From: Candidatus Hodarchaeota archaeon
GTDB lineage: Archaea; Asgardarchaeota; Heimdallarchaeia; Hodarchaeales; Hodarchaeaceae
DNA: 7,153 nt
Assembly: GCA_016840305.1 (NCBI GenBank)
Contig: JAEOSP010000676.1
Span: 1 to 7,153 of the forward strand
Direction of reading: 5' to 3'
Position 1 is the first letter of the stretch; the number at the start of each line of letters is the position of its first letter. The notes below the pieces were generated by a model that was given only the letters and a program-made list of their open reading frames with translations, searched no databases and had not been told where the DNA came from. The position numbers and the translations under genes were made by a program. Positions 2,611 to 3,999 of the stretch are shown in pieces.

Positions 2611-3999
2611 TCACGCCTCACTAGGGTAATATTTATCAATAAATTTTTTTGAAATTCGATTTAAATCAGTTTTAGGAATTACAGTTAAGGCTTTCCAACC
2701 GATGCTTAATGTTTCTTCTATTGTTCTTCTTGTATCACCTTGGTTAATGAACTTTTGCTCGAAAATATCAGAAAATTTAAGATATAAGCGATCTCGGTCG
2801 CTTAAGGATTCTTCTCCAGCAATGGAAGCGAGTTGCCTTAGCTTCATTCCACGAGAATAACTAGCAAATAATTGATTAGCTAGATTAGCGTGATCCTCAC
2901 GTGTTTTTCCTTCGCCAATTCCTTCATTCATTAATAGGGAAAGAGAGGGGATAGGATTCATTGCTGGGTAGATTGATCTATTAAAATGTGGCCTGCTCAT
3001 TAGTAATTGTCCTTCTGTAATATATCCTGTTAAATCTGGCACAGGATGAGTGATATCATCATTAGGCAATGTTACAACAGGGATCATTGTAACACTCCCT
3101 GGTTTACCGTCTACCTTACCTGCTCTTTCATATATAGTTGCGAGATCAGTATATAAGTATCCAGGATATCCTCTTCGGCCAGGAAACTCTTCTCTTGCAG
3201 AGGATATCTCTCGAAGTGCTTCACTGTAATTTAACATATCATGTAAAAGAATTAACACATTTCTATCTTTTTCATATGCCAGATATTCTGCAAAAGTTAA
3301 GGCAACCCTTGGAGTGATAATTCTCTCCACAATACTGTCCATCGTATAATTTGAGAAAAATGCAATGTTTGTTCCAGATGCTTCACTGAATTTGATCCTG
3401 AAAAATCTTCCTTCACGTTCAGTTATCCCCATTGCAACAAATATGACATCAAGTTCTTGTTCTTCTGCAAGTACCCGAGAATTGACCGCTATACTTGCAG
3501 CTACTTCGGATGTGGGCATACCACTCAATGTGAAAATTGGTAGTTTTTGACCTTGAACAAGTGCATTTAACCCATCGATAACAGATAATCCCGTTTCAAT
3601 AAAATCCTCTGGGCTTGTTCTTCTAACTGGATTCATAGGAGCCCCAGTGATAGGTAATCGTTTCTCAACAAACAAAGGACCTAAATCATCTATTGGATGC
3701 CCTATACCATTCATTGTACGTCCAATCATTTGCTCAGATAAGCCAACCCTAAATACATCCTTTGTAAATTCAACTTCTGTATCAACTCTCTCCATAGAGT
3801 TTGTTCCCTCAAATACTTGAACAATTGTAGCATTTTCATCTGCTTGTAGAACCTGGCCAGTTCTAACATCTCCATTGGGCATATAAATTTTGACAATTTC
3901 CTCATAAGCTACATTAGAAATGGATTTAAGAAAGATAAGAGTTCCTTGAATGGCATCAATAGTTCTATATCGATAAGTTGGTGATGTTTTGATTTTCAT
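2611..3999 (-). CDS. atpB: A/V-type ATPase subunit B (non-catalytic head subunit), arginine finger replaced
   Basis: Subunit B alternates with A in the soluble head and completes the catalytic sites from the side. The 462-residue length is normal. Family motifs in order include GQVLQ..., VQVFEGT (61-66), MNGIGHPIDDLGP (96-108), FIETGLSVIDGLN (133-145), GQKLPIF (150-156), the long block SAREEFPGRRGYPGYLYTDL (267-286), and GEGKTREDHANLANQL (362-377) with a C-terminal KYYP end. The motif expected as YPPI-x-VLPSLSRLM reads YPAMNPIPSLSLLM (344-357), so Leu355 stands where other members have the arginine finger. The flanks align without gaps and the frame is intact. The B-subunit loop usually FSGSGLPHNE reads FTLSGMPTSE (156-165), and the usual NTLVRGQ reads NALVQGQ. 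ATG at 3997-3999 has an excellent ribosome-binding site, and atpA ends 13 bases upstream. Assignment as a B subunit is secure; normal catalytic competence is not. Confidence 0.96.
   Translation of the reverse strand: MKIKTSPTYRYRTIDAIQGTLIFLKSISNVAYEEIVKIYMPNGDVRTGQVLQADENATIVQVFEGTNSMERVDTEVEFTKDVFRVGLSEQMIGRTMNGIGHPIDDLGPLFVEKRLPITGAPMNPVRRTSPEDFIETGLSVIDGLNALVQGQKLPIFTLSGMPTSEVAASIAVNSRVLAEEQELDVIFVAMGITEREGRFFRIKFSEASGTNIAFFSNYTMDSIVERIITPRVALTFAEYLAYEKDRNVLILLHDMLNYSEALREISSAREEFPGRRGYPGYLYTDLATIYERAGKVDGKPGSVTMIPVVTLPNDDITHPVPDLTGYITEGQLLMSRPHFNRSIYPAMNPIPSLSLLMNEGIGEGKTREDHANLANQLFASYSRGMKLRQLASIAGEESLSDRDRLYLKFSDIFEQKFINQGDTRRTIEETLSIGWKALTVIPKTDLNRISKKFIDKYYPSEA

Follow-up and report, generated by a model that had tools for sequence, protein, structure and literature searches.

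The question raised by this locus is whether an A/V-type ATP synthase of an Asgard archaeon has truly lost the arginine finger of its B subunit, the residue which, as Arg355, would extend into the catalytic site of A, there to stabilise the transition state, or whether the sequence misleads at this one codon. The window, by which we mean the whole stretch of 7,153 nucleotides that was analysed, comes from a Hodarchaeum-like archaeon and encodes the C-F-A-B-D genes of the complex.

The operon and the finger position of subunit B

The features of the window that bear on the question, all on the minus strand, are:

1995..2639, minus strand: subunit D, 214 amino acids, TTG start, overlapping B (PF01813)
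2611..3999, minus strand: subunit B of the A/V-type ATP synthase, 462 amino acids (Pfam PF00006, PF02874 and PF22919; NF003235)
2935..2937, minus strand: codon 355 of B, reading CTA for Leu, at the position of the arginine finger (ungapped alignment to R360 of T. thermophilus B)
2962..2964, minus strand: codon 346 of B, reading GCA for Ala; Pro in the relatives compared (codons CCA, CCA and CCT)
4013..5749, minus strand: catalytic subunit A, 578 amino acids, with GGFGTGKT and CGERGNE (NF003220, 743 bits against a cut-off of 470)
5789..6118, minus strand: subunit F, 109 amino acids (PF01990)
6111..7151, minus strand: subunit C, N-terminus probably cut by the window end (PF01992)

Five frames are intact and the genes contain no frameshift or stop; the frame of subunit C is open to the window end and its homologue in Candidatus Hodarchaeum mangrovi (L001) starts further upstream, which is why its N-terminus is probably missing. 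The B gene adjoins those of other subunits of the same complex, and its product matches the family model NF003235 over its whole length (644.9 bits, cut-off 349) and the three Pfam domains above their cut-offs. It misses the cut-off of the archaeal equivalog TIGR01041 (620.6 bits vs 844.65); we put this shortfall of more than 200 bits down to divergence along the whole protein, for a single residue could not account for it. Subunit A has its P-loop, GGFGTGKT, at 230 and the catalytic Glu-Arg in CGERGNE at 257, as aligned to 3m4y_A. The best reading of the window is that of a Hodarchaeum-like archaeon's A/V-type ATP synthase operon of the ordinary kind.

Two further features of the layout were observed. 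A 614-aa protein, encoded on the plus strand (134-1978) and convergent to the operon, has a membrane-bound look as judged by eye and matches nothing in Pfam or NCBIfam at an E threshold of 0.001; homologues of it occupy the corresponding position in L001 (53% identity) and in L002 (50%). Also, the B and D genes overlap by 29 bases (2611-2639), and a similar overlap, together with a TTG start of D, is seen in L001.

Window positions 2935-2937 read TAG on the plus strand and CTA on the minus strand, which makes codon 355 of the B open reading frame a leucine within the motif PIPSLSLLM, exactly as the first-pass annotation had it; as sequenced, Leu355 breaks the PSLSR motif of the arginine finger. 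The annotation had further identified this residue with the arginine finger and denied any alignment shift, and both points are borne out: in the HMMER alignment residues 312-414 of the window B pair with residues 317-419 of T. thermophilus B, with no gap anywhere across the region, and Leu355 falls on Arg360. An alignment shift as the cause of Leu355 is thereby ruled out. In the accessible portion of PMC8904598, B/R360 of T. thermophilus is counted among the catalytic residues, together with A/E257 and A/R258, while Arg-350 of E. hirae B is named the arginine finger in the excerpt available of PMC6851342.

Among the 88 columns of B that are invariant in 120 other listed homologues, the window departs at two, P346A and R355L, and among the 98 invariant columns of A at none. 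Leu355 thus exceeds ordinary divergence. P346A, the only other such break, is ordinary: within 104 other B proteins (those of the targeted search described below) position 346 is Ala in two, both of which keep the Arg finger, and Ser in one, among the 167 loci rows ungapped there it is Ser in one, and the A-subunit rows shown carry Ala (PA) at the equivalent position.

Distribution of the arginine among relatives

Arginine occupies the finger position in all 120 other listed B homologues (the best of 7998 matched), which include each of the 11 close proteins with 85-91% identity to the window B, and in all 162 distinct B sequences from DNA loci covering the position (124 from Asgard archaea, 38 from elsewhere), distinctness being counted over residues 270-410. 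Leaving out the loci from the phylum pattern search gives 159 distinct sequences, all Arg; 18 of the 205 loci had no B match covering the finger site and were excluded from the count. Of the 227 genomes covered by the Asgard phylum search, 202 gave matches; a part of these was read, namely the loci that the searches brought up and 60 fetched regions. These sets partly overlap, so these counts are not additive. Both PRK02118-type B subunits scoring above the family cut-off have SLSR, one by alignment and the other by eye, as its local alignment had slipped through gaps, and the viral contigs searched contained no relative.

The nearest named genomes are those of Candidatus Hodarchaeum mangrovi (L001, B 90% identical) and Candidatus Hodarchaeota archaeon (L002, B 91%). 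The first-pass annotation had proposed a comparison with close relatives, with the proviso that its reading would suffer if all of them had Arg; Leu is indeed unshared, and Arg is found in the 11 close proteins and two close genomes that could be reached, a finding whose scope is that of representatives of 90% clusters, within which closer members may sit. At least one closer relative exists, since the A protein P0122 is 94% identical to the window A and stands for a cluster of 17 members, and the B protein P0004 stands for one of 26; nearer relatives inside such clusters could share the leucine. For the reachable relatives (close proteins, two close genomes and 162 loci sequences, all Arg) Leu355 as a shared trait of the clade is ruled out, and it appears private to the window sequence among the relatives read.

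A protein search with B residues 342-381 alone as query, designed to draw candidates with Leu, yielded 122 candidates, of which 104 passed (93 new, 11 seen before) and were inspected at the finger, out of many more B proteins in the database. Arg was found in 103 and Leu in one, P0291, a B protein of bacterial type that is the sole member of its cluster and comes from one contig of 5.6 kb. Like the window, it has SLSLL at the finger and is otherwise conserved, its departures from near-invariant columns being R350L and one other, G13S; unlike the window, it belongs to a different lineage. The nearest relative available, P0302 (87%), shares G13S and keeps Arg. Two unrelated and unshared cases of Leu look more like background noise than like an enzyme class, and the pattern fits error because sporadic occurrence is typical of errors, though two independent real losses are possible.

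Other observations on Asgard ATPases were made in passing. The B subunits of three Asgard genomes carry an insert that is intein-like by its sequence: L204/L190 (G176:C88:30033-33191), L205/L189 (G178:C56:22418-25573) and L191 (G175:C63). It starts after TDMTNY with CLHGKSRI in G176 and G178, whose B frames reach 1071 and 1081 aa, and ends with VVSN before CESLREIS in all three. In the 14 genomes of the order (G001-G014), where A was recognised only through its weak match to B, two ATPase lineages are seen. G001, G002 and G004 have the window type, in which A and B are neighbours; in a standard type, which G004 also possesses, the A-like and B genes of G010, G011 and G012 are separated by more than 0.5 Mb of a single contig.

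Origin of the leucine

Judged from these comparisons, a change that is sporadic, unshared among the relatives read and uncompensated is fitted best by a base error, second best by a recent private mutation and poorly by altered chemistry. For these reasons we favour, as fairly probable, a mistake of base calling or assembly in a single metagenome contig: we infer that the window is such a contig and that the base is wrong, and as biology Leu355 is probably not real. The true residue 355 would in that event be Arg, and the enzyme in the living cell would be expected to work normally. Against an error stands the otherwise clean state of the window, with its five intact frames, a C frame open to the window end and no odd residue in A.

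The first-pass annotation had suggested CGA misread as CTA. An error stands as the best explanation, but the two nearest genomes, L001 and L002, have AGA at the finger and not CGA (the more distant L064 has CGT). CTA differs from CGA at one base and from AGA at two, and a misreading of one base therefore requires that the window strain had CGA. This codon is found in the window at only 4 of the 34 sites, summed over B, A, D, F and C, where both relatives have AGA and the window has Arg, AGA being used at 18. The codon evidence may be considered neutral, neither favouring nor excluding an error.

Measures of selection were obtained by comparing the window with L001 and L002. For B, dN was 0.060-0.067 with dS near-saturated at 1.83-2.05, and for A, dN was 0.079-0.094 with dS again near saturation; both subunits are under strong purifying selection. 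Private amino-acid changes, counted with no outgroup in the order window, L001 and L002, numbered 17, 18 and 13 in B, 23, 36 and 26 in A, 39, 45 and 30 in C, 4, 16 and 14 in F, and 18, 16 and 12 in D, the only subunit in which the window is highest, and then slightly. In the B tree the window is placed beside P0004 and P0012 (support 87/84, under the starred level) with an end branch of 0.059, in a 12-row clade that spans 0 to 0.075. Selection on A and B shows no marked relaxation, as there is no marked acceleration across the five subunits and the end branch lies within the range of its clade.

In a comparison made at the level of sequence, the window B shows no gain of Lys or Arg relative to its clade, and A gains two lysines, K161 and K504, both outside the P-loop (230-237) and CGERGNE (257-263). 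Strong purifying selection, intact motifs of the A site and the lack of a basic gain in B together make the two subunits look otherwise functional. The annotation's idea that a substitute residue comes from elsewhere finds no candidate at the sequence level, since the two gains in A lie outside the catalytic motifs, and its idea of altered chemistry or a regulatory role is likewise unsupported, with Leu recurring only in the unrelated P0291, no basic gain in B and no marked relaxation. That the loop was copied from the A subunit encoded in the window was also considered and is unlikely, as A has Gln there.

A fixed and adapted variant, for example a slow or one-way regulated enzyme, or one using another residue as its finger, is for us very unlikely. 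P346A sits in the same loop, nine residues from Leu355, and with both substitutions the loop comes closer to that of the A-subunit paralogue (SYSL in many A matches), and the Leu of P0291 gives a second case in an unrelated lineage; but the two of 104 other B proteins with Ala346 keep Arg, both PRK02118-type B subunits keep SLSR, the window's own A carries Gln and not Leu at the equivalent position, and the close relatives read share no Leu, with no basic replacement and no shift in selection. We would likewise give little credence to a natural A-type ATP synthase that has no arginine finger in any of its three catalytic sites and still serves the cell, very slowly or by means of a substitute.

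More credible, though still doubtful, is a true, recent and private mutation, with which the complex would assemble and bind nucleotide while hydrolysis and synthesis were about a thousandfold slower, the loss being borne through low frequency, a second ATPase or ATP from substrate-level phosphorylation. It agrees with the intact frames and with the clean state of A and B, and what is known of mutants points to a very slow enzyme: the available part of PMC3268026 gives, for E. coli F1, ATPase values of 0.025 for alphaR376Q and 0.120 for R376K against 42.0 for the wild type (the parenthesised values, which we take as those of purified F1), and in the portion available of PMC5380711 replacing catalytic residues with alanine, the finger among them, does not abolish rotation but slows it 10^3- to 10^4-fold, with the torque of the finger mutant at about half. 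On the strength of these values and rotation rates a Leu enzyme, if real, would probably be very slow rather than dead, with its ATPase slowed about a thousandfold. Genomes of the order may have a spare ATPase, as the more distant relative G004 has two B genes and two A-like matches, but G001 and G002, which are the nearest genomes and of unstated completeness, show one B and one A-like match each, and under strong purifying selection such a crippling change should be removed.

That the operon is one of two ATPases in its genome and the copy that is decaying would accord with G004, which holds a window-type and a standard-type set, but the window genes contain no frameshift or stop and its five subunits show no marked acceleration, which leaves this reading extremely improbable.

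Comparison with known rotary ATPases

A search of the literature covering titles and the starts of abstracts, with most papers unopened, found no natural rotary ATPase without the finger, and neither the term for the yeast B-subunit mutant R381S nor the word Hodarchaeum. If the base is right, no other archaeal operon among the sequences examined has a B subunit without the finger, and the window would constitute a natural test of how far rotary catalysis depends on the arginine finger. As it stands, the case is mainly a warning that in sequences from single contigs a catalytic residue may, on rare occasions, falsely seem lost, with which the second sporadic Leu, that of P0291, itself unverified, is in keeping.

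The best PDB match is the B subunit of the T. thermophilus V/A-ATPase (PDB 3gqb_B and others), a whole-length homologue that aligns with no gap over the finger but has Arg360 where the window has Leu355. In the E. hirae V1-ATPase the same position was altered in B(R350K), with very low ATPase activity according to the accessible text of PMC6851342; that change, however, was made in the laboratory, and its Lys keeps the charge, which the Leu of the window does not. A close counterpart is the operon of Candidatus Hodarchaeum mangrovi, in which the genes I (PF01496) and K (PF00137) and, at the place of E, a 219-aa frame lacking a Pfam match precede the C-F-A-B-D genes. These are in the same order as in the window, with a B subunit 90% identical and the homologue of the 614-aa protein beyond D, but the finger codon is AGA (Arg) where the window has CTA (Leu).
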